Assembly: GCA_900475325.1 (NCBI GenBank)
Contig: LS483371.1
Span: 4,836,001-4,900,000, forward strand
From: Paucimonas lemoignei
Lineage (GTDB): Bacteria > Pseudomonadota > Gammaproteobacteria > Pseudomonadales > Pseudomonadaceae
DNA length: 64,000 bases
Direction: 5' to 3'
Under the pieces are notes generated by a model. It worked only from the letters and a program-made list of their open reading frames with translations, did not search any database and had not been told where the DNA came from. Of this stretch, positions 1 through 56,457 are shown one piece after another. How positions within the stretch are numbered: the first letter of the stretch is position 1; each line of letters starts with the position of its first letter. The translations under genes and the position numbers were made by a program.

Positions 1-1
1 G

Positions 2-304
2 CTGCCGGAACCCGTCGCGCTGGAAACCGAAAAAGGGGCGATGACAGCCCTCTGGCTCTACGAGATGTCGTTCAAGGGTGTGTTGCTGGAGAATCGAAAG
101 CCCAACCGCCCACCGAAAGTATTTTCCGCCTGGTTCGCCCCGGTGGGACATGCGCCCATCGCCATGCGCGGCACCTTCGAGCGCCTGACCGAATCAGGGC
201 TGGCAGCTTACCGGCTCAGCCAGCACAACAAGGAAGAAACAGAGCGCCTGCGCCAGTACATTCTGCAGCAACACCGCAAGCTCTTTCCCTCCTTGCATCG
301 CTGA
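2..304 (+). CDS. 3' part of a possible PilZ-domain protein
   Basis: The open frame enters from the left edge, so only the last 100 residues are visible; the ATG at 41 is probably internal. The segment around ALWLYEMSFKGVLLEN followed by a glycine/arginine-containing beta region and a terminal helix (RLRQYILQQHRKL) resembles the second half of a PilZ c-di-GMP-binding domain. The arginine motif that would bind c-di-GMP would lie upstream of the window, so the assignment cannot be confirmed. It ends one base before the stop of the converging MerR gene. The reading frame is real by codon pattern; the family call is an inference from fold-like residue pattern only. Confidence 0.5.
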   Translation: MPEPVALETEKGAMTALWLYEMSFKGVLLENRKPNRPPKVFSAWFAPVGHAPIAMRGTFERLTESGLAAYRLSQHNKEETERLRQYILQQHRKLFPSLHR

Positions 305-305
305 C

Positions 306-1268
306 TCAGGTATCGAGTCGGCCCTGCAAGAACAGCTGCAAACCCCGCTGCATGGATCGCCCGTCGCTGCCCAGGCAAGCCACTGCCGACCCTTCAAGAC
401 TCTCACGCGCCAGATCAGCTCCCTCACCCGCCAGTAACAGCGGGCAATCCAGGGTCAACGCCAGGCGTTTGAGACGACGCGGCAGGTCAAGCGTAGGTGG
501 CAGGTTACTGAACAGTACGACCGCCAGCGGAGCAACCTTGCCGCACACCAGGCTCAGTTCTTCCAGCGGCTGCCCTAGTGCCAACACTTGCACGCCCACA
601 TCGCTACTGCCAAGCAAAAGGCCCGCGACCCACAGCTCCAGTTCACGACAGGCGTCAGGTAACGCGGCCAGAATGACTCTATGCGACGCGGCCCCCGCTG
701 CCATCTGCAGGCGCTGAAGGGTCCTCGCACGCAGGAAGCTGTCGAGAAACAACCATTCGCTGGCCTGGCCAAATCGCTCACGATGCAGCAACAGCTCGCG
801 CCATACCGGGATGAAGACGTCCTGAAACACCACGGTCATCGGGTAGCTGGAAAAGACCTGACCATAGAGCTGCTCAAGCCTGCGCTCGTCAAACGCAGCC
901 ACCGCGTGGCGGATCTGCTCGTGCCAGTCAGCCCAGTCACCGGCCTGTACGTCGCTGTCCAGAGCAACCGACGGGGGCCGGGTGCTGCTGGTGTGGGCCA
1001 GAATCTTGCTGACCTTGCTGACCGCAACGCCGCGCTCGATCCAGCCCAGGATGCTGCGCACTTCATCGATATCGCTTTGCGAATAAAGCCGATGTCCGCT
1101 CTCGGTCCGGGTGGGCTGGATCAGCCCGTAACGGCGCTCCCAGGCACGCAGCGTCACCGGATTGATGCCGGTGATGCGCGATACTTCGCGGATAGGAAAC
1201 AGCTCTTCCTGCTCAAGGCCTGCACAGGGACCATTGGCGAGCACTTGGCCCGTGGCGGAATCAGTCAT
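306..1268 (-). CDS. MerR-family regulator, class II LitR/CarH-like (B12 motif lost)
   Basis: 320 aa. Residues about 24-92 form a MerR winged helix (FPIREVSRITGINPVTLRAWERRY as its core), followed by a helical linker and a C-terminal Rossmann-like segment at the place of the cobalamin-binding domain of CarH/LitR. The histidine signature of B12 proteins (D-x-H-x2-G) is absent: the equivalent stretch reads LPDACRELELW. This is the architecture of class II LitR (PplR) proteins of Pseudomonas, which respond to light through a partner photoreceptor rather than bound cobalamin. A paralogue with the same architecture lies at 49067-49996. It is divergent from the membrane monooxygenase-like gene at 1507. 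Function as a light or redox regulator is inferred; its targets are unknown. Confidence 0.8.
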   Translation of the reverse strand: MTDSATGQVLANGPCAGLEQEELFPIREVSRITGINPVTLRAWERRYGLIQPTRTESGHRLYSQSDIDEVRSILGWIERGVAVSKVSKILAHTSSTRPPSVALDSDVQAGDWADWHEQIRHAVAAFDERRLEQLYGQVFSSYPMTVVFQDVFIPVWRELLLHRERFGQASEWLFLDSFLRARTLQRLQMAAGAASHRVILAALPDACRELELWVAGLLLGSSDVGVQVLALGQPLEELSLVCGKVAPLAVVLFSNLPPTLDLPRRLKRLALTLDCPLLLAGEGADLARESLEGSAVACLGSDGRSMQRGLQLFLQGRLDT

Positions 1269-2193: not shown

Positions 2194-2883
2194 ATGAATA
2201 ATCCAATCCTGATCACCGGGGCCAGTCAACGAGTGGGTCTTGAGTTGGCAACAGCACTGGCCGAGGCCGGCCATCTGGTTGTCAACGCCAGCCGCACCCT
2301 CGCCCCGGCATCGTCGCATCCTAATATCGTGTCGTTTGCCGTTGACCTGCAGATCGCCGAAGAGCGCATGGAGCTGGTCGCCTGGTTGCAGTCCAACTAC
2401 TCAGGGCTGCGGGCGGTGATCCACAACGCATCGCTGTGGCTGAAAGACGGCGTCGACAACCTGAACACCATGTTCAAACTACATGTCGAAGCGCCCTACC
2501 ATTTGAACCACGAGCTGGCACCGCTGCTGGCGCAAAGCCCGAAGGCGGACATCATCCATATCTGCGATGAGACCTCCTCCCGGGGCAGCAAAAGCCATAT
2601 CGCCTATGCCGCGACCAAGGCCGCGTTGCAAAACATGGTGTTGTCCTTCGCGGAAAAGCTCGCGCCTGATATCCGGGTGAATGCGATCCTGCCAGGCTTG
2701 CTGATCCTCAAGGAAAACAGTGACGAGGCCTATCGCAACCAGACGCTGAAAAAGGCCCTGCTGGAGTTCGAGCCAGGCTCGCAGCCATTGATCGATGCGG
2801 TGTTCTATCTGCTCAATACGCAGTACAGCACAGGCAGCAGTGTGGTCGTGAACGGCGGCCGACACCTGAAGAAAGGCGCTTGA
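2194..2883 (+). CDS. folM: Dihydromonapterin reductase FolM (SDR family)
   Basis: 229 aa, short-chain dehydrogenase. The cofactor motif is TGASQRVG near the N terminus, the NAG-like motif is HNASLW, and the active-site YxxxK is YAATK. The family reduces dihydromonapterin (and weakly dihydrofolate) to the tetrahydro form with NADPH, supplying the pterin cofactor of phenylalanine hydroxylase in pseudomonads. The ATG chosen has no clear ribosome site of its own. A six-codon frame (MPNVAK) starting at 2177 ends in an ATGA overlap with it, so coupled or leaderless initiation is possible. It leads a three-gene unit with the DUF1244 and HopJ genes. Distinguishing FolM from other SDRs rests on the TGASQRVG motif and overall likeness. 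Confidence 0.85.
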   Translation: MNNPILITGASQRVGLELATALAEAGHLVVNASRTLAPASSHPNIVSFAVDLQIAEERMELVAWLQSNYSGLRAVIHNASLWLKDGVDNLNTMFKLHVEAPYHLNHELAPLLAQSPKADIIHICDETSSRGSKSHIAYAATKAALQNMVLSFAEKLAPDIRVNAILPGLLILKENSDEAYRNQTLKKALLEFEPGSQPLIDAVFYLLNTQYSTGSSVVVNGGRHLKKGA

Positions 2884-46517: not shown

Positions 46518-46541
46518 TATACCAAAAAACAATATTGTACA
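46518..46541 (+). promoter_or_regulatory. LitR/PplR-like operator before the FAD oxidoreductase gene
   Basis: TATACC-N12-TGTACA at 46518-46541, one mismatch from T(G/A)TACA-N12-TGTA(C/T)A. It overlaps a candidate -35 TTGTAC (46535-46540) with -10 TAGTCT at 46558 (17-base spacing). The consensus is from P. putida class II LitR work as I recall it. Confidence 0.65.
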
Positions 46542-46549
46542 GGTTTTAA

Positions 46550-47787
<1,238 letters not shown>

Positions 47788-47847
47788 CTGTGTAGGAGCT
47801 GCCGTTCCGCCTTCGACGCCGATCTATACGGCAGCAAACACGGGACC

Positions 47848-47972
47848 TGTGGGAGCGACCGGGGTGGCGATCCACCTGGCTCGCGAAAGCAATTTTCCTG
47901 CCTGCAGAAATATATGCAAATGTCCCGGCCTCTTCGCGGGCAAGGTGGATCGCCACCCCGGTCGCTCCCACA
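47848..47972. repeat. Composite REP pair, symmetric long-arm form
   Basis: Both arms are long: left GTGGGAGCGACCGGGGTGGC then GATCCACCTGGCTCGCGAA, right the reverse complement CGCGGGCAAGGTGGATCGCC then ACCCCGGTCGCTCCCAC. This is the symmetric counterpart of the asymmetric pairs at 36161 and 44209. Confidence 0.88.
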
Positions 47973-48006
47973 GGAAATCACCAGGCCCGCAACCTCATAC
48001 AAACCC

Positions 48007-48030
48007 TATACAAATGATTTGACTTGTACA
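48007..48030 (+). promoter_or_regulatory. LitR/PplR-like operator 1
   Basis: TATACA-N12-TGTACA, an exact match to T(G/A)TACA-N12-TGTA(C/T)A. It covers the -35 hexamer of the photolyase-operon promoter. Confidence 0.8.
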
Positions 48031-48046
48031 CCCATGAACCTATGAT
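48019..48046 (+). promoter_or_regulatory. Sigma-70 promoter of the DUF523/MerR/photolyase operon
   Basis: -35 TTGACT (48019-48024), 16-base spacer, -10 TATGAT (48041-48046). Start of transcription expected near 48053, between the two operators. Confidence 0.75.
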
Positions 48047-48056
48047 GAGGTTAAGT

Positions 48057-48080
48057 TGTACAGCGAATTTACTCTGTACA
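48057..48080 (+). promoter_or_regulatory. LitR/PplR-like operator 2
   Basis: TGTACA-N12-TGTACA, exact match. It begins about 10 bases after the -10 element and ends 20 bases before the operon start codon, a position expected to block initiation or clearance. Confidence 0.8.
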
Positions 48081-48100: not shown

Positions 48101-49063
48101 ATGCAAGGTTCAGCAGTCCATAAACCCAAACTCGGTATCAGTGCCTGCCTGATGGGCGCCGAGGTGCGTTTCAATGGTGGCCATAAAGAGTCCCATTTGT
48201 GCACTCGCGCGCTGACCGAGTATTTCGAATTCGTCACGGCATGCCCGGAAGTGGCGATCGGCCTGGGCATCCCCCGCGAACCTATCCGTTTGGTCGGTGA
48301 CGGCCAGAACCCGCAAGCTGTGGGCACCGTGAACCGCGAGCTGAACGTGACCCAGGCGCTGGCCGATTATGGCGTGCAGATGGCCGACGAACTGGGCGAT
48401 ATCTGCGGTTACATCTTTATGCAGAAGTCCCCGTCCTGCGGACTGGAAAGGGTCAAGGTGTATACCGAAAAAGGCGCCCCGGTAGAGGGCGGCGGACGCG
48501 GTATTTACGCCCAGGCATTCTGCGAGCGCCATCCGAATATGCCAGTCGAAGAGGATGGCCGCCTCAACGATCCCGTGCTGCGAGAGAACTTCATCACCCG
48601 CGTGTTTGCCTATGCCGCCTGGCAGGACCTGCTCAAGGCCGGACTCACTCGTCGCTCGCTGACCGAATTCCACTCCCGCTACAAATACCAACTGATGGCC
48701 AACGACCCGGTGCAATACAAGGCATTGGGCAATCTGCTGGGCAACATGGGGCGCAGCGACCCCAACGAGATTGCCCCGCAGTATTTCAGCGACCTGATGG
48801 CAGCGTTGAAAAAACCCGCCACCCGTCGTACCCATACCAATGTCCTGCAACACCTGTGCGGTTACCTGAAGCAGACCATCAGTGCCTCGGACAAACAGGA
48901 AGTCCAGCAGCTGATCAGCCAATACCATCAAGGCATCGTGCCCTTGATCGTGCCGCTGACCCTGCTCAAGCACCACTTCCGCCAACACCCTGACCCCTAT
49001 GTGGCGCTGCAGGTTTACATGCAGCCACATCCGGAAAATCTCAGCCTGCGAAATGCGATCTAA
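48101..49063 (+). CDS. DUF523-DUF1722 fusion protein (YbgA-like)
   Basis: 320 aa from ATG 48101; the frame runs through the operator but the protein starts there after AGAGG. Residues 1-155 are DUF523 (LGISACLMGAEVRFNGGHKE, and the CPEVAIGLGIPREPIRLV block), with Cys pairs such as SPSCGLERV. Residues about 190-310 are DUF1722 (YKYQLMANDPVQYKALGNLL). E. coli YbgA is next to phr, and both domains occur in thiouridine desulfurase and photolyase-associated contexts. First gene of the light-type operon, 3 bases before merR. Confidence 0.9.
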   Translation: MQGSAVHKPKLGISACLMGAEVRFNGGHKESHLCTRALTEYFEFVTACPEVAIGLGIPREPIRLVGDGQNPQAVGTVNRELNVTQALADYGVQMADELGDICGYIFMQKSPSCGLERVKVYTEKGAPVEGGGRGIYAQAFCERHPNMPVEEDGRLNDPVLRENFITRVFAYAAWQDLLKAGLTRRSLTEFHSRYKYQLMANDPVQYKALGNLLGNMGRSDPNEIAPQYFSDLMAALKKPATRRTHTNVLQHLCGYLKQTISASDKQEVQQLISQYHQGIVPLIVPLTLLKHHFRQHPDPYVALQVYMQPHPENLSLRNAI

Positions 49064-49066
49064 CCC

Positions 49067-49996
49067 ATGAATGAGATCAGTCAACCCGTGCCCGACAACG
49101 TGCCGCTCATGGCAGAAGAATGGCTGCCGATCCGCGAAGTCTCGCGCCAGACTGGTGTCAACGCGGTCACCCTGCGAGCCTGGGAGCGCCGATACGGACT
49201 GATCGTGCCCCATCGCACTCCAAAAGGTCATCGGCTGTACTCAGACGCTCATGTCCAGCGCGTGATGCACATCCTGACGTGGCTTAATCGCGGCGTGTCC
49301 GTCAGCCAGGTAAAAAACCTCATTGATAGTCGCCAGCCCGACACCCTTGTCCCCGGCAGTGACTGGGACGCGCTCAAGCAGAACCTGAGCAAAGCCATTG
49401 GCGAACTGGCCGAACGTCGAGTCGATGACCTGTTCAATCAGGCCATGTCGCTGTACCCGCCGCGCACCGTGTGCGAACAGTTGGTGTTGCCACTGCTGGA
49501 GGAGCTGGAAAGCCGCTGGCAGGGCCAGTTTGGCGGACAGATGGAACGCGCGTTCTTCTACTCCTGGCTGCGCAGCAAGCTGGGTGCCCGGATCTACCAC
49601 AACAACCGCCAGGTCAGCGGCGCCCCGGTATTGCTGGTCAACCATTCAGACCTGCCGATGGAGCCGCACCTGTGGCTCAGCGCCTGGCTGATCAGCACCG
49701 CCGACTGCCCGGTGGAAGTCTTCGACTGGCCACTGCCCAACGGCGAGCTGGCACTGGCCGCCGAATTCCTCAAGCCTCGGGCCGTGTTGCTGTATTCGAG
49801 CAAAGCCCTCAATACCGCGCAGCTTTCGAAACTGCTGATCAACGTGCCCTGCCCGACTGTGTTGGCGGGCACCAGCGTGCGCATCCACTGCGATGAACTG
49901 GGCGAATCGATCAGCAAGATCGAAGGCCTGCACCTGGCCCAGGACCCCATCGGCGCGCTGGCAGCTCTGCAGCTACTGGATATTTTCAAGGAATGA
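49067..49996 (+). CDS. MerR-family regulator, class II LitR/PplR-like
   Basis: 309 aa, DNA-binding domain at residues 19-90 (WLPIREVSRQTGVNAVTLRA), then a helical region and a Rossmann-like C terminus. The cobalamin motif is missing (VNHSDLPMEPHLW in place of D-x-H-x2-G). In P. putida, class II LitR proteins repress such operons in darkness and need a LOV photoreceptor partner. It lies within the operon whose promoter has two LitR-type sites, so autoregulation is inferred. Its stop overlaps an upstream alternative ATG of phrB. Confidence 0.9.
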   Translation: MNEISQPVPDNVPLMAEEWLPIREVSRQTGVNAVTLRAWERRYGLIVPHRTPKGHRLYSDAHVQRVMHILTWLNRGVSVSQVKNLIDSRQPDTLVPGSDWDALKQNLSKAIGELAERRVDDLFNQAMSLYPPRTVCEQLVLPLLEELESRWQGQFGGQMERAFFYSWLRSKLGARIYHNNRQVSGAPVLLVNHSDLPMEPHLWLSAWLISTADCPVEVFDWPLPNGELALAAEFLKPRAVLLYSSKALNTAQLSKLLINVPCPTVLAGTSVRIHCDELGESISKIEGLHLAQDPIGALAALQLLDIFKE

Positions 49997-49998
49997 CT

Positions 49999-51447
49999 AT
50001 GCAACTGCTATGGCTGCGCAGCGACCTGCGCGTCCACGACAACACCGCGCTGAGCGCTGCCCTTGAGCAAGGGCCGACCGTGGCCGTGTATCTGATCAGC
50101 CCGGCGCAATGGCTCAGCCACGACGATGCGCCGTGCAAGGTGGATTTCTGGCTGCGCAATCTGGTTGAGCTGCGCGCCGCCTTGAGTGAGTTGAACGTGC
50201 CGTTGCTGATTCGCCAGGCCGACACGTGGGACAAGGCCCCCGAAGTGTTGCTTGATCTGTGCACTGAGCACTCGATTGAAACGGTGCACGCCAACGAAGA
50301 ATACGGCATCCACGAGACCCGCCGCGATGAGGCGGTCGAGCGCGCCTTGCAACAGGCTGGCCTGCACTGGCGCAGCCATCTGGACCAACTGTTTTTCAAG
50401 CCGGGCACTGTCCTGACCAAAACCGGCAATTACTTCAAGGTGTTCAGCCAGTTTCGCAAGGTGTGCTACACCCGCATGCACCACGCGATGCCGACCCTTG
50501 TGGGCCTGCCGAAAAAGCAAAATCCGCTGGCGATCAAGAGCGACGACATCCCTCAGCAGGTCGACGGTTTTCCTACCCCGTCCAAAACCCTGCAGGCACT
50601 ATGGCCCGCGGGCGAAGACGAAGCGCGGCGACGGCTGGCAGACTTCAGCGATCAACAGATCGACTACTACAAGGACGAGCGCGATCTGCCCGCCAAGCCG
50701 GGCACCAGCCAGCTGTCGGCCTACCTGGCCGCCGGGGTGATTTCGCCGCGCCAGTGCCTGTATGCCGCGCTGAACAGCAATCAGGGCGAGTTCGAAACCG
50801 GCAGCGTCGGCGCCGTGACCTGGATCAACGAGCTGCTCTGGCGCGAGTTCTACAAGCACATTCTGGTGGGCTACCCACGGGTTTCCCGACACCGAGCCTT
50901 CCGCCCGGAAACCGAGGCCCTGCAGTGGCGCCAGGTGCCCAAAGAGTTGGCAGCCTGGCAGGAAGCACGCACCGGCCTGCCGATCATTGATGCCGCCATG
51001 CGCCAGCTGCTGGAAACCGGCTGGATGCACAACCGGCTGCGCATGGTGGTGGCGATGTTCCTGACTAAGAACCTGCTGATCGACTGGCGCGAAGGCGAGC
51101 GGTTTTTCATGCAGCATTTGATCGATGGCGACCTGGCCGCCAACAACGGCGGCTGGCAGTGGAGCTCGTCCACCGGCACCGATTCATCACCTTACTTCCG
51201 CATCTTCAACCCGCTGTCCCAGTCCGAGAAGTTCGACCCCGAGGGGCTGTTCCTCAAGCACTGGCTGCCGGAGCTGGCCGGGTTGAACAAAAAAGAAGTG
51301 CACAACCCGGCCGCTGCCGGTGGGCTGTTCGGCGTCGCCAGCTACCCCAAGCCGATTGTCGACCTGAAGAGCAGCCGCGCCCGCGCGCTGGCCGCCTTCA
51401 AGGCGCTGCCCCACCTGCAACCCGCCGAGGCCCTGGACGATGAGTGA
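49999..51447 (+). CDS. phrB: Deoxyribodipyrimidine (CPD) photolyase
   Basis: 482 aa from ATG 49999 (AAGGA six bases before; an ATG at 49993 has no room). Antenna domain residues 1-130 (LLWLRSDLRVHDNTALSAAL), FAD domain from about 200 with WINELLWREFYKHIL, GLPIIDAAMRQLLETGWMHN and NNGGWQWSSSTGTDSSPYFR. It repairs cyclobutane pyrimidine dimers with blue/near-UV light. Class I type. SnoaL-like gene overlaps its end by 8 bases. Confidence 0.97.
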   Translation: MQLLWLRSDLRVHDNTALSAALEQGPTVAVYLISPAQWLSHDDAPCKVDFWLRNLVELRAALSELNVPLLIRQADTWDKAPEVLLDLCTEHSIETVHANEEYGIHETRRDEAVERALQQAGLHWRSHLDQLFFKPGTVLTKTGNYFKVFSQFRKVCYTRMHHAMPTLVGLPKKQNPLAIKSDDIPQQVDGFPTPSKTLQALWPAGEDEARRRLADFSDQQIDYYKDERDLPAKPGTSQLSAYLAAGVISPRQCLYAALNSNQGEFETGSVGAVTWINELLWREFYKHILVGYPRVSRHRAFRPETEALQWRQVPKELAAWQEARTGLPIIDAAMRQLLETGWMHNRLRMVVAMFLTKNLLIDWREGERFFMQHLIDGDLAANNGGWQWSSSTGTDSSPYFRIFNPLSQSEKFDPEGLFLKHWLPELAGLNKKEVHNPAAAGGLFGVASYPKPIVDLKSSRARALAAFKALPHLQPAEALDDE

Positions 51448-51862
51448 TTACCTGCGCTGTTTCGCGCGGGAATTCGCCGCGCTGGATAAACACACCCTGG
51501 ATCGGCTGAACACGCTGTACGCCGACGACGTGCTGTTCACCGACCCGCTGCACCAGATTCGCGGCATCAACGACATGCAGCGCTATTTCGGCGAGTTGTA
51601 CGCCAACGTCAGCCATCTGCATTTCGACTTTTACGCCTTTGATGAAGTCGCCCCCGGCAACGGTTATCTGCGCTGGACCATGAGCTATTCGCACCCGCGT
51701 CTGGCCAACGGCCGCACGATCCGCGTCGACGGCTGTTCGCACCTGTTGTGGCGAGACAAGGTTTATCAACACCGCGATTATTTCGACGCCGGTGCTTTGT
51801 TGTACGAGCACTTGCCGGTCATGGGCAGGCTGATTGCCTGGCTGAAAAGGAGACTGGGATGA
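51440..51862 (+). CDS. SnoaL-like/NTF2-fold small protein
   Basis: 140 aa. Begins inside phrB. SnoaL-like pattern LNTLYADDVLFTDPLHQIRG and a central YFGELYANVSHLHFD, with a WTMSYSHPRLANGRTIRVDG strand. Fold of nuclear-transport-factor 2; members may be isomerases or scaffolds. Conserved in photolyase/SDR/CFA operons. Overlaps the next start by ATGA. Confidence 0.87.
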   Translation: MSDYLRCFAREFAALDKHTLDRLNTLYADDVLFTDPLHQIRGINDMQRYFGELYANVSHLHFDFYAFDEVAPGNGYLRWTMSYSHPRLANGRTIRVDGCSHLLWRDKVYQHRDYFDAGALLYEHLPVMGRLIAWLKRRLG

Positions 51863-52641
51863 ACAGCACAGACGTCAAACGGATCTGGTTGACCGGAGCC
51901 AGCAGCGGGATCGGGCTGGCGCTGGCCGAAGAACTGCTCAAGGCCGGTCACAAACTCGCTCTAACCGCCCGCAGCCTGCCGCCGCTCGAAGCGCTGGATC
52001 AGCGCTTTCCGGGGCAAGTATTGCTGGCGCCGGGCGATGTTACCGACAACGCCCAGGTCACCGGCATTGGCGAACGCATCAATCTGGTCTGGGGTGCGCT
52101 CGATTGCGCGATCCTCAACGCGGGCACTTGTGAATACGTGGACAGCAAACACTTTGACGCGGCGCTGATAGAGCGCGTGGTGCGCACCAACCTACTGGCC
52201 AGCTCGTACTGCATTCAGGAAGCCCTGCTGTTGCTGCGCAATGGGCATCAACCTCATCTGGTCGGGGTGTGCAGCGCGGTCACTTATCTGCCGCTGACCC
52301 GCAGCGAAGCCTACGGCGCGTCCAAAGCCGGGCTGCGCTATCTGTTGCAGTCACTGCGCATCGACCTCGCCCACGAGAACATCGACGTCACCATCGTCAG
52401 CCCGGGCTTTGTCGACACCCCGCTGACGGCCAAAAACGATTTCCCCATGCCCATGCGCTGGCCGGTCGCCAAGGCCGCCAGTTTTATTGCCGAGCGTTTG
52501 CAGCGTAAACGTCGGCCGATGGAGATCGCCTTCCCCGGCCCGTTCATCCTGACTTTGCGTCTGTTGGCGCTGCTGCCGACCCGCCTGCAACTGGCGCTGG
52601 GCAAACGCATGGCCCGCTCGCAGAACAAGGACGCTCAATGA
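51859..52641 (+). CDS. Short-chain dehydrogenase/reductase
   Basis: 260 aa from ATG 51859 (AAGGAGACTGGG). The cofactor motif TGASSGIGLALAEELLKA, LNAG, catalytic YGASKAG, and PGFVDTPLT are intact. A classical SDR of unknown substrate, likely lipid- or carbonyl-related given its operon. It overlaps both neighbours by four bases. Confidence 0.93.
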   Translation: MNSTDVKRIWLTGASSGIGLALAEELLKAGHKLALTARSLPPLEALDQRFPGQVLLAPGDVTDNAQVTGIGERINLVWGALDCAILNAGTCEYVDSKHFDAALIERVVRTNLLASSYCIQEALLLLRNGHQPHLVGVCSAVTYLPLTRSEAYGASKAGLRYLLQSLRIDLAHENIDVTIVSPGFVDTPLTAKNDFPMPMRWPVAKAASFIAERLQRKRRPMEIAFPGPFILTLRLLALLPTRLQLALGKRMARSQNKDAQ

Positions 52642-53885
52642 AAATCGCCATTGTCGGCAGCGGGATTGCCGGGTTGACCAGCGCCTATCTGCTCAATCGC
52701 AAGCATGACATCAGCGTCTTCGAAGCCGCCGACTGGATCGGCGGGCACACCCATACCGTCGACGTTCAAGTGGCCGGGCGAGATTACGCCATCGATACCG
52801 GGTTCATTGTGTTCAATGACTGGACCTACCCGAACTTCATCAAGCTGCTGGGCCAGATTGGCGTAGGGTTCAAGCCCACCGAAATGAGCTTCTCGGTGTG
52901 CGACCCCAAGACCCGAACCGAATACAACGGCAACAACCTCAACAGCCTGTTCGCCCAGCGCAGCAACCTGCTATCGCCGACGTTCTGGGGCATGCTGCGC
53001 GACATTCTTCGCTTCAACCGCGAGGCCCTGGCTGACCTCGAACACCAGCGCATCGACCCACACACCACCCTGGGCGATTACCTGCAAAGCCACGGTTATG
53101 GGCAGCGGTTCATCGAGCATTACATCGTGCCGATGGGCGCGGCGATCTGGTCGATGTCGCTGGCCGACATGCTGGCCTTCCCGCTGCAGTTCTTTGTGCG
53201 TTTCTTCAAGAACCACGGCTTGCTATCGGTCAGTAACCGGCCGCAGTGGTGCGTGATCAAGGGCGGTTCCAGTCGCTACATCGAACCGTTGACTACATCA
53301 TTCCGCGAACGCATCCGTCTGGCGTGCCCGGTGCACAGGGTCGAGCGCGATGAACACGGCGTGACGGTGCACAGCGCGGCGGGCAGTGAACGCTTCGACA
53401 AAGTCATCTTCGCCTGCCACAGCGATCAGGCCCTGAAGTTGCTGGCCGAGCCAAGCGCCGCCGAGCAGGACATTCTGGGCGCCCTGCCCTACGCCGAAAA
53501 CGATGTAGTGCTGCACACCGACGCCCGCCTGCTGCCCAAGCGCAAGCTGGCGTGGGCGAGCTGGAACTACCGCCTCGGCGGCGGCACACAGCAAATGGCC
53601 GCCGTGACTTACGACATGAACATCCTGCAGGGCATCGACAGCGACACGACGTTTTGCGTCAGCCTCAACCAGACTGACGCCATCGATCCGAACAAGATTC
53701 TGGCCCGTTACCGTTACGCCCATCCGCAATACAGCCTGGCGGGCGTGGCGGCACAAGCGCGCTGGGAAGAGCTCAACGGCGCTCATCACACCTGGTTCTG
53801 TGGCGCTTACTGGGCCAACGGTTTCCATGAAGATGGCGTGGTCAGCGGGCTGCGGGTGGCCCACGCCTTCGGGGAGAGCCTTTGA
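52638..53885 (+). CDS. NAD(P)/FAD-dependent amine-oxidase-like protein
   Basis: 415 aa. FAD site IAIVGSGIAGLTSAYLLNRK, DYAIDTGFIVFNDWTYPNFI and the terminal CGAYWANGFHEDGVVSGLRV. This is the group that accompanies DUF1365 and CFA-family genes in Proteobacteria (for example the singlet-oxygen sigma-E regulon of Rhodobacter). Predicted to modify fatty-acyl chains. ATGA overlap with the SDR and TTGA overlap with DUF1365. Confidence 0.9.
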   Translation: MKIAIVGSGIAGLTSAYLLNRKHDISVFEAADWIGGHTHTVDVQVAGRDYAIDTGFIVFNDWTYPNFIKLLGQIGVGFKPTEMSFSVCDPKTRTEYNGNNLNSLFAQRSNLLSPTFWGMLRDILRFNREALADLEHQRIDPHTTLGDYLQSHGYGQRFIEHYIVPMGAAIWSMSLADMLAFPLQFFVRFFKNHGLLSVSNRPQWCVIKGGSSRYIEPLTTSFRERIRLACPVHRVERDEHGVTVHSAAGSERFDKVIFACHSDQALKLLAEPSAAEQDILGALPYAENDVVLHTDARLLPKRKLAWASWNYRLGGGTQQMAAVTYDMNILQGIDSDTTFCVSLNQTDAIDPNKILARYRYAHPQYSLAGVAAQARWEELNGAHHTWFCGAYWANGFHEDGVVSGLRVAHAFGESL

Positions 53886-54688
53886 CCTTGAACAGCGCCC
53901 TGTACAGCGGCTGGATTGCCCATCGCCGCTTCGCGCCCCGCGCCCATGACTTCCGCTACCGGATCGGTCTGTTGTACCTGGATCTGGATGAGCAGGACGC
54001 AGTGCTGGGGCTGTCGCCGCTGGCGGGCAAGGGACGCTGGGCGCCGTTTGCCTTTCGCGAGACCGACTACCTGCGTGAGTCCACGCGCCAGGGCGTGCCC
54101 TTGATCGAGGCCGTGCGTGCACGCATCAGCGAGGCGCTCGGGCGCAGACCGCTGGGCAAAGTCTGCCTGCTGACTCAGGCGCGCAGTTGGGGCTTGGCGT
54201 TCAACCCGGTAAGTTTTTTCTACTGTTACGACGCCGATGGCTCACTGGCGGCGATTCTCTGCGAAGTCACCAACACCCCGTGGCGCGAGCGCTACCACTA
54301 CGTACTGCCCGCCGACGGCGAAGGTCATCAGCACTTTGCAGTGGCCAAGGCATTCCACGTTTCGCCGTTCCTGCCCCGTGACCTGGAATACCGCATGAGC
54401 TTCAGCCCACCGGATGCTCGCCTGGGCGTGCACATGGCGGACTGGCAAGGCGACTTCAAGATTTTCGACGCGACGTTGAACCTGCAACGCCAGGAACTGA
54501 ATCGCCACAACCTGCACCGCTATTTAATGACCTTTCCCTGGATGACCGCCAAGACCTGTCTGGCGATCTACTGGCAAGCCCTGCGCCTGCTGCTCAAGCG
54601 CACCCCTATCTCCCCCCATCAGGCTGCCGACGGCGAATACCGCGCTGCTGCCACGCAACCTAAGGATCTGCGCCATGAAAAGCAGTAG
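53882..54688 (+). CDS. DUF1365 family protein
   Basis: 268 aa starting at TTG 53882, with GGGGAG five bases upstream and overlap with the previous stop; a second TTG at 53888 is possible. Family blocks YSGWIAHRRFAPRAHDFRYR, FNPVSFFYCYDADGSLAAI and EVTNTPWRERYHYVLP are clear. Usually paired with the FAD protein and a CFA-family methyltransferase; no catalytic activity is known. It overlaps the CFA gene by 14 bases. Confidence 0.9.
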   Translation: MTLNSALYSGWIAHRRFAPRAHDFRYRIGLLYLDLDEQDAVLGLSPLAGKGRWAPFAFRETDYLRESTRQGVPLIEAVRARISEALGRRPLGKVCLLTQARSWGLAFNPVSFFYCYDADGSLAAILCEVTNTPWRERYHYVLPADGEGHQHFAVAKAFHVSPFLPRDLEYRMSFSPPDARLGVHMADWQGDFKIFDATLNLQRQELNRHNLHRYLMTFPWMTAKTCLAIYWQALRLLLKRTPISPHQAADGEYRAAATQPKDLRHEKQ

Positions 54689-55943
54689 CAGCAGTTTTTC
54701 TGCCAATCTGGGCACCAATAGCCTGACCGCCAGCATTCTGCGTCGGGGTGTTCTGCGCCAGCTTAAACAGCTGCGCAAAGGCCAATTGGTGATCAGCGAA
54801 GGCGCCGAGCGGCATGTGTTTGGCACCGCCGGTGCGTTGCTGCAGGGTGAAATCCAGATTGTGGATTCGGCGACCTGGGGCATGGTCGCCAGCAATGGCT
54901 CGATCGGCGCAGGTGAAGCCTTCATTCATGGCTACTGGACTTCACCTGACCTGACTGCGGTGATCCGGGTGTTTGTCAGCAACCTCGACGTGCTCGACGG
55001 CATGGAAGGCGGCATGGCCAGGCTCGGGCGCCCGCTGATTCAGGGGCTGCACTGGCTCAATCGCAACACCCGGCAAGGCTCACAGAAAAACATCGCCGCC
55101 CATTACGACCTGGGCAATGATCTTTTCGAGCAGTTCCTCGACCCGACCATGATGTACTCCGCGGCACAGTTTCTGAGCCCCGACGACACGCTGGAGCAGG
55201 CGCAGCTGAACAAGCTGGAGCGCATCTGCCAGAAGCTGGCGCTCAAGCCTGAAGATCACCTGCTGGAAATCGGTACCGGCTGGGGCAGCATGGCGATCTA
55301 TGCCGCGCAGCACTATGGCTGCAAAGTGACCACCACCACGCTATCCAAAGAACAATTCGCCTACACCGAGCAGCGTATTGCTCAGCTGGGCTTGCAGGAT
55401 CAGGTCACGCTGCTGCTCAAGGATTACCGTGATCTGACCGGTCAGTTCGACAAGCTGGTGTCTATCGAAATGATCGAAGCGGTGGGCCATCGGTTCTTGC
55501 CGACCTACTTCAAGCAATGCGCCCACCTGCTCAAGGACGATGGCCTGATGCTGCTCCAGGCCATCACCATTCGCGATCAACGTTACGAACAGGCCAAGCG
55601 CAGCGTCGACTTTATCCAGCGCCACATCTTCCCCGGCGGCGCCCTGCCGTCGCTGCAGAAAATGCTCGAAATCGTCACCCGCGATACCGACATGAACCTG
55701 TTGCACATGGAAGACTTCGGCCCGCACTACGCGCGCACCCTGCGCATCTGGCACGACAACTTCCGCCATGCCCACGGTGCGCTCACCGAACTGGGTTATG
55801 ACGACTACTTCCTGCGACTGTGGGAGTTTTACCTGTGTTACTGCGAGGGCGGGTTTCTGGAGCGCACCATTGGCACCGCGCAATTGCTGCTGGCCAAGCC
55901 TTTGGCGCAGCCACTGCCGCTGCTGGGCCGCCTGAATGCTTAA
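54675..55943 (+). CDS. CFA-synthase family S-adenosylmethionine methyltransferase
   Basis: 422 aa from ATG 54675 (AAGGA). Central AHYDLGNDLFEQFLDPTMMY, AdoMet motif LEIGTGWGSMAIYAAQHYGC and EMIEAVGHRFLP. Longer than E. coli Cfa by about 40 residues. Adds a methyl(ene) group to unsaturated acyl chains of membrane lipids; it could make cyclopropane acids or a methylated/furan precursor like the Rhodobacter enzyme of this operon type. Membrane-surface enzyme. Overlaps DUF2878. Confidence 0.92.
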   Translation: MKSSSSSFSANLGTNSLTASILRRGVLRQLKQLRKGQLVISEGAERHVFGTAGALLQGEIQIVDSATWGMVASNGSIGAGEAFIHGYWTSPDLTAVIRVFVSNLDVLDGMEGGMARLGRPLIQGLHWLNRNTRQGSQKNIAAHYDLGNDLFEQFLDPTMMYSAAQFLSPDDTLEQAQLNKLERICQKLALKPEDHLLEIGTGWGSMAIYAAQHYGCKVTTTTLSKEQFAYTEQRIAQLGLQDQVTLLLKDYRDLTGQFDKLVSIEMIEAVGHRFLPTYFKQCAHLLKDDGLMLLQAITIRDQRYEQAKRSVDFIQRHIFPGGALPSLQKMLEIVTRDTDMNLLHMEDFGPHYARTLRIWHDNFRHAHGALTELGYDDYFLRLWEFYLCYCEGGFLERTIGTAQLLLAKPLAQPLPLLGRLNA

Positions 55944-56457
55944 ACAAATCGCCAATGCCGTGCTGTTCCAGGTGGGCTGGTTTGCCTGCGTGATGGGCGG
56001 CAACAGTCCCTGGCTACTGCTGGCCATCGGCGTTCTGGTGGTGCACCTGCTGTGGATAAGTTCATGGGCAGCGGAAGGCAAATTACTGCTGTGGATAACC
56101 AGCGTGGGCATCCTTCTCGACAGCGCGCTGATGCATCTCGGTGTCTTTGCGTTCGGTAACGACAGTTTACTGATCCCGCTGTGGCTGATCGTGCTCTGGC
56201 CGGTGCTGGCGACAACCCTCAACCATTGCCTGGCCTGGACAGCGAAGCCCTGGTCGCGGGCCAGTTTGCTGGGCGCGGTGGGTGGGCCGATGTCGTATTA
56301 CGCAGGCTCGAAGTTGGCAGGCGTGCAATTGCCCATGGGCATGTGGCCCAGCCTGCTATTGCTGGCAGCGATCTGGACGGGGGTGTTTCCCTTGTTGCAA
56401 TGGCTGGCGGGCCGATCAATCGCTGGTCAGGCAATCCACACCCGGGACACGCACTGA
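55936..56457 (+). CDS. DUF2878 family membrane protein
   Basis: 173 aa with four or five hydrophobic helices (IANAVLFQVGWFACVMGG, then LLWITSVGILLDSALMHLGV and WLIVLWPVLATTLNHCLAW). Function unknown; this family is commonly the last member of the FAD/DUF1365/CFA cluster, so an inner-membrane partner in the lipid pathway is a reasonable inference. Start overlaps the CFA gene by 8 bases. Confidence 0.88.
   Translation: MLKQIANAVLFQVGWFACVMGGNSPWLLLAIGVLVVHLLWISSWAAEGKLLLWITSVGILLDSALMHLGVFAFGNDSLLIPLWLIVLWPVLATTLNHCLAWTAKPWSRASLLGAVGGPMSYYAGSKLAGVQLPMGMWPSLLLLAAIWTGVFPLLQWLAGRSIAGQAIHTRDTH

Follow-up and report, generated by a model that had tools for sequence, protein, structure and literature searches.

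A predicted class II LitR operator pair at the photolyase operon promoter of Paucimonas lemoignei and its relation to the blue-light switch of Pseudomonas

The DNA analysed here (the window; 64,000 nucleotides of Paucimonas lemoignei, contig LS483371.1, positions 4,836,001 to 4,900,000) contains a promoter in front of a photolyase operon that is, in our judgement with little doubt, an orthologue of the Pseudomonas class II LitR blue-light switch on the rudS-litR-phrB-ufaM operon. The operator sites, the promoter, the gene order, the short LOV gene and both LitR genes are present in this genome, and conservation in relatives is shown by comparison. The mechanism of the light switch is already known from promoter P6650 of Pseudomonas mendocina, and as an orthologue of a characterised light promoter the finding needs no new mechanism. 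Its remaining value lies in a third conserved operator and in the fact that genomes lacking a short LOV match still retain operator and operon-encoded LitR.

Two predicted LitR operators, site 1 (TATACA-N12-TGTACA, 48007-48030) and site 2 (TGTACA-N12-TGTACA, 48057-48080), match the consensus T(G/A)TACA-N12-TGTA(C/T)A with zero mismatches, as a preliminary description of this DNA had claimed, and because the consensus is palindromic the sites have the same form on either strand. The -35 hexamer TTGACT (48019-48024, plus strand) lies inside site 1, which ends six bases past it, and a 16-base spacer separates it from the -10 hexamer TATGAT (48041-48046, plus strand), as read from the sequence; both hexamers and the spacer equal those described for P6650 (PMC9758184). 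By analogy with P6650, transcription would begin at 48053 on the plus strand, 48 bases 5' of the RudS ATG at 48101 (PMC9758184), and site 2 would then start at about +5. With this start, the features of a P6650-type promoter are present together, namely two motif copies, site 1 over the -35 hexamer, site 2 between start and ATG, and TTGACT-N16-TATGAT, and the earlier placement of site 1 on the -35 hexamer and of site 2 just past the expected start holds. At up to one mismatch the motif occurs three times in the window versus 0.04 expected, a count reached in none of 100 shuffles. Genome-wide (5.92 Mb, one contig), exact matches stand at four places, two of which are sites 1 and 2, where about 0.38 are expected for independent bases of the window's composition.

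The pair is widely conserved. Of 199 genomes of the genus, a set that includes the present one, 145 have a tandem pair pattern somewhere and 3 have the reversed pattern; RudS adjoins 27 of 30 inspected pair loci, a LOV gene adjoins one and neither adjoins two, so that the figure of 145 somewhat overstates this particular promoter, since some pairs have no RudS neighbour. Among 80 loci with RudS (the best 80 of 92, enriched for close kin of the window species and therefore not independent), 58 carry a pair with at most two mismatches in each site, 21 carry at least one site but no pair, and one carries none; some relatives have one mismatch in the left half of site 1 (CTACA). The spacing in these 58 loci is 50 bases in 48, 49 in three, 51 in two, 45 in three, 42 in one and 40 in one. 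The proposal that sites 50 bases apart are bound cooperatively finds no support in these data: the spacing ranges from 40 to 51, a value of 45 would shift the helical phase by roughly half a turn relative to 50, and 21 of 80 loci keep a site without a pair. The narrow clustering at 50 fits fixed promoter elements as well as cooperation. Tandem pairs (pattern length 71) were also seen about 15-30 bases past the end of the short LOV match in six genomes (G193:C15:506661, G025:C20:21537, G024:C1:347677, G065:C1:2697940, G072:C137:84731 and G057:C1:1624903), and the two-site layout thus serves another promoter too.

All genes of the operon lie on the plus strand. The first encodes RudS (48101-49063), with a 2-thiouracil desulfurase domain and DUF1722 (Pfam), and the second encodes MerR1 (49067-49996), with a MerR HTH and a B12-binding_2 domain (Pfam). 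In class I LitR/CarH proteins the B12-binding domain contains the motif E/DxHxxG. MerR1 gives a B12-binding_2 match of 28 bits (cut-off 23) and no PF02310 match at E 0.001, as fits a class II LitR, and its residues 199-204, EPHLWL, keep E-P-H (present in 49 of 74 aligned rows) and lack the G; without a B12-binding domain match and without this glycine it falls outside class I. There follow, by Pfam matches, the deoxyribodipyrimidine photolyase PhrB (49993-51447; NF007955 also above its cut-off), a SnoaL-like protein (51440-51862), a short-chain dehydrogenase (51859-52641, with a start codon of our choice), an FAD-dependent amine-oxidase-like protein (52638-53885), a DUF1365 protein (53882-54688), a cyclopropane-synthase-like methyltransferase (54675-55943) in the position of ufaM, a name taken from the gene order in PMC9758184, and a DUF2878 protein (55936-56457), which is probably the last gene, with the operon presumably ending there. 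The order rudS-litR-phrB-...-ufaM is that of the P6650 type. RudS removes 4-thiouridine from tRNA, rudS genes are described as frequent in light-responsive operons, and PP_0741 of P. putida is RudS_KT (PMC11417400).

The preliminary description overlooked the short LOV gene to the left of the window, close to a second LitR gene, and a third operator at 46518-46541. The second LitR gene, MerR2 (306-1268, minus strand), is PmlR2-like by its position beside the LOV gene; its product shares 38% identity with MerR1 over 269 columns and matches the MerR HTH only, with no B12-binding_2 match at E 0.001. The 3' end of a 201-aa gene (1-304, plus strand) separates it from the short LOV gene (150 aa; G000:C1:4835185-4835634), which ends about 360 bases left of the window and thus lies one gene away from MerR2. 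The LOV protein matches PAS models only, being a single LOV domain with no effector, contains the reactive-cysteine motif N/D-C-R-F-x-Q-G as DCRFMQG, and is likely the photosensor of the switch. This order of LOV, 201-aa gene and MerR2 is the pmSB-LOV/PME15565/pmlR2 arrangement, and the whole genome yields two LitR matches and one short LOV match. Near MerR2 lies folM, the gene for dihydromonapterin reductase (2194-2883, plus strand), with no operator within two mismatches in front of it in this genome.

The third predicted operator (46518-46541; TATACC-N12-TGTACA, one mismatch) precedes a gene for an FAD/NAD-binding oxidoreductase (46589-47575, plus strand), whose ATG lies 47 bases beyond it and whose stop codon is overlapped by the gene of a TIGR02450 Trp-rich small protein (71 aa, TTG start, 47572-47787, plus strand). 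A perfect 31-base inverted repeat (CCTGTGGGAGCGACCGG...) at 47846-47876 and 47944-47974, which we take to be REP-like, separates the TIGR02450 gene from the photolyase promoter. On the minus strand the third operator reads TGTACA-N12-GGTATA, and the P. mendocina folM site is given in the form TGTACA-N12-GGTATA (PMC9758184). A site with at most one mismatch is found 1,000-2,600 bases 5' of RudS in 65 of 80 loci (best 80 of 92; in two loci the flank is too short, and one of the 65, L109, is placed elsewhere and resembles a reversed site 1), where the window's motif rate predicts about 0.001 for a stretch this long. The 65 rows comprise 32 distinct 24-mers with half-sites conserved to 96% and 99%, values that are partly circular since the rows were picked by the motif, so that we give the counts more weight than these percentages. 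The 12-base spacer is conserved to 69%, the 30 bases upstream to 50% and the 24 bases downstream to 85%, and part of the signal therefore reflects a shared promoter. Judged from the letters, a TTGTAC-N17-TAGTCT promoter overlapping the third operator is possible but weak. From the gene order beside PP_0741, the oxidoreductase gene is likely PP_0742 of P. putida, and in one study the cluster PP_0738-PP_0742 was reported to be jointly up (PMC11014904). The third site would place the oxidoreductase/TIGR02450 pair in the same regulon and, if functional, should extend it by two genes; it did not appear in literature searches, and may well stand in Sumi et al. 2020 or in supplements.

A genome scan for the motif, proposed earlier as a way to define the regulon, contributed one conserved addition, the third operator, while the two exact sites outside the window are unconserved. 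The exact site at G000:C1:1662422 (L016:7423-7446), between a LysR gene and frmA (formaldehyde dehydrogenase), was rejected as a regulon member, as every match in relatives has at least two mismatches; the surrounding stretch is present in 24 relatives within the genus and in one genome from elsewhere in the order. That at G000:C1:2085571 (L017:7572-7595), between a PAS-PAS chemoreceptor gene and an oxidoreductase gene, was likewise rejected, as short pieces of it occur in only 3 of 37 relatives, and is either lineage-specific or a chance match. Both sites may be chance matches. At up to one mismatch the genome holds 16 matches, versus eight for a reversed control. Twelve are one-mismatch sites, and 11 of them (L005-L015; 5621971 was left out) were compared with the open frames around them. 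Apart from the third operator, all 10 fall within frames 86 to 649 aa long whose coding is unproven. The site in L013 lies 20 bases into its frame of 298 aa, perhaps close to where a gene begins. A plasmid search with the promoter sequence gave no match.

Binding, repression and light response are expected here by analogy with P. mendocina and P. putida. In the dark, LitR (MerR2, MerR1 or both) would occupy site 1 over the -35 hexamer and site 2 past the start and exclude RNA polymerase. Under blue light, the short LOV protein would form its flavin-cysteine adduct and bind LitR, which would then leave the DNA, allowing synthesis of photolyase, of RudS, which de-thiolates tRNA, and of the products of the lipid and redox genes. 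MerR1 would also be produced in light and might aid re-repression on return of the dark. For the model system it is described that PmlR2, a class II LitR, protected one broad region spanning both sites of P6650 of P. mendocina NBRC 14162 (Maruyama et al. 2022, PMC9758184), that PmlR2 repressed transcription from P6650 in vitro and illuminated PmSB-LOV relieved this repression, that light induced pmlR1, phrB and ufaM by 5.7-fold to 33-fold (Table 1), and that LitR and LOV made contact in a two-hybrid assay in dark and light alike (PMC9758184). The earlier prediction of an autoregulated, dark-repressed and light-induced loop is strengthened by this footprint, the in vitro transcription and the light-induced pmlR1 and phrB in so far as it places a predicted LitR pair on the promoter of a photolyase operon with its own LitR; the operon's own LitR is not the sole candidate repressor, because the published footprint was obtained with the LOV-linked paralogue PmlR2, whose counterpart is MerR2 (306-1268, minus strand). 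We count against the switch model that folM has no site here, unlike in P. mendocina, that two sites are not essential, with the exact pair pattern absent from 54 of 199 genomes and a pair from 22 of 80 loci, that the two-hybrid contact was seen in darkness as well as in light, and that operon and site occurring without a short LOV are left unexplained by a model based on LOV only.

Among 199 genus genomes, 175 have a short LOV match (E 1e-30 or better) and 197 a LitR match (E 1e-20 or better), and at least two LitR matches occur in 167 of the 175 LOV-positive versus 1 of the 24 LOV-negative genomes. Three of the LOV-positive genomes, G013, G028 and G054, are counted as such on weak matches (E 4e-31 to 5e-32 and 3e-33) that possibly represent other LOV proteins. 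Among the LOV-negative genomes, 22 have a LitR match (single in 21, two in G186), and the exact tandem pair persists in 12 of 24. All 22 LOV-less LitR loci are flanked by RudS- and PhrB-like matches (RudS partial in L214, L216 and L217). Twenty of these loci contain an exact site; of the other two, L224 has a site with one mismatch and L216 has no site at that tolerance. The exact LOV motif N/D-C-R-F-x-Q-G was found in 12 of 24 LOV-negative and in all eight tested LOV-positive genomes. A renewed search of 11 of the 12 motif-less genomes (G093, with no LitR, was left out) gave LOV-like matches of E 2e-18 to 7e-20 in four and none better than E 9e-8 in seven (G104, G110, G127, G170, G186, G189 and G190); LOV absence in these genomes is probable, given that the exact pattern may miss an odd LOV and that drafts are possibly incomplete. 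Each of the seven retains rudS-litR-phrB together with one or more exact sites, and MerR1 is the sole LitR in six of them. The LitR encoded in the operon possibly responds to an input other than a short LOV.

A reading in which MerR1 is the sole relevant repressor of the window promoter, in an autoregulatory loop that responds to light itself or through a partner, draws on these single-LitR genomes (21 of the 22 LOV-less genomes with a LitR match, with the flanks and sites described) and on the P. putida consensus having been defined with PplR1, the operon's own LitR (PMC9758184, PMC11014904). It is nevertheless improbable for this organism, whose genome contains LOV and MerR2, as at least two LitR accompany short LOV in nearly all LOV-positive genomes and because in P. 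mendocina it was PmlR2, not PmlR1, that was described as repressing and meeting LOV (PMC9758184). Furthermore, in the LOV-positive genomes G015, G079 and G089 the only LitR match is weak (E 5e-40 to 1e-41) and MerR2-like by score, so that these genomes apparently have MerR2 without MerR1, and G079 retains one tandem-pair locus with neither RudS nor MerR1 beside that pair. As a broader and still tentative idea, somewhat doubtful in our estimation, operator and MerR1 could form the older switch core with short LOV and MerR2 as a separable add-on, and MerR1 in LOV-less genomes could be released through another light sensor, e.g., a LOV histidine kinase, or by sensing light or photo-oxidative stress itself; we lowered its standing slightly because three LOV-positive genomes seemingly lost MerR1, which means that either module can go. 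The persistence of operator and MerR1 without short LOV is the single part that goes beyond the published model and is possibly new, and the LOV-less genomes offer a clear comparative test of how LitR is released where the short LOV is missing.

That the TGTACA sites serve a light-independent regulator, e.g., a stress regulator with similar half-sites, and resemble LitR operators by coincidence is very unlikely, since site, spacing, promoter, gene order and both regulator genes match a tested light promoter; the increase of PP_0738-PP_0742 in a P. putida co-culture despite an assumed lower light per cell, which its authors ascribe to a different stress (PMC11014904), speaks for it. A chance origin of both matches in an intergenic stretch richer in AT, in favour of which stand the two unconserved exact sites elsewhere, themselves perhaps chance matches, is refuted by conservation (145 versus 3 genomes for pair and reversed pattern, 58 of 80 loci at the orthologous promoter) and by the shuffles.

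The closest known counterpart of the window's predicted blue-light promoter is P6650, compared here through the published description of that promoter. Both have TTGACT-N16-TATGAT with site 1 on the -35 hexamer and site 2 between start and ATG, the operon order is the same, and the LOV gene lies close to the second LitR gene in both; the P. mendocina unit, PME6650-PME6610, has nine genes (PMC9758184). Differences are that site 1 begins with TATACA in the window and with TGTACA in P. mendocina, that a stretch of about 50 kb in this genome holds both LOV/MerR2 and the photolyase operon whereas they form separate loci there, that folM is preceded by an operator only in P. mendocina, and that the site before the FAD-oxidoreductase gene was not found in the accessible part of PMC9758184. 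P. putida KT2440, with PplR1-PplR3 and PpSB-LOV (Sumi et al. 2020, as cited in PMC9758184, PMC11417400 and PMC11014904), shares the consensus, the position of PplR1 in the photolyase cluster and RudS as PP_0741, but has three LitR and two short LOV proteins as described there, compared with two LitR matches and one short LOV match here. With the adenosyl-B12 photoreceptor repressors of class I, LitR/CarH, the system shares the MerR HTH and the lifting of repression by light; it differs in that MerR1 has B12-binding_2 only and that light would be expected to act through LOV and not through B12.
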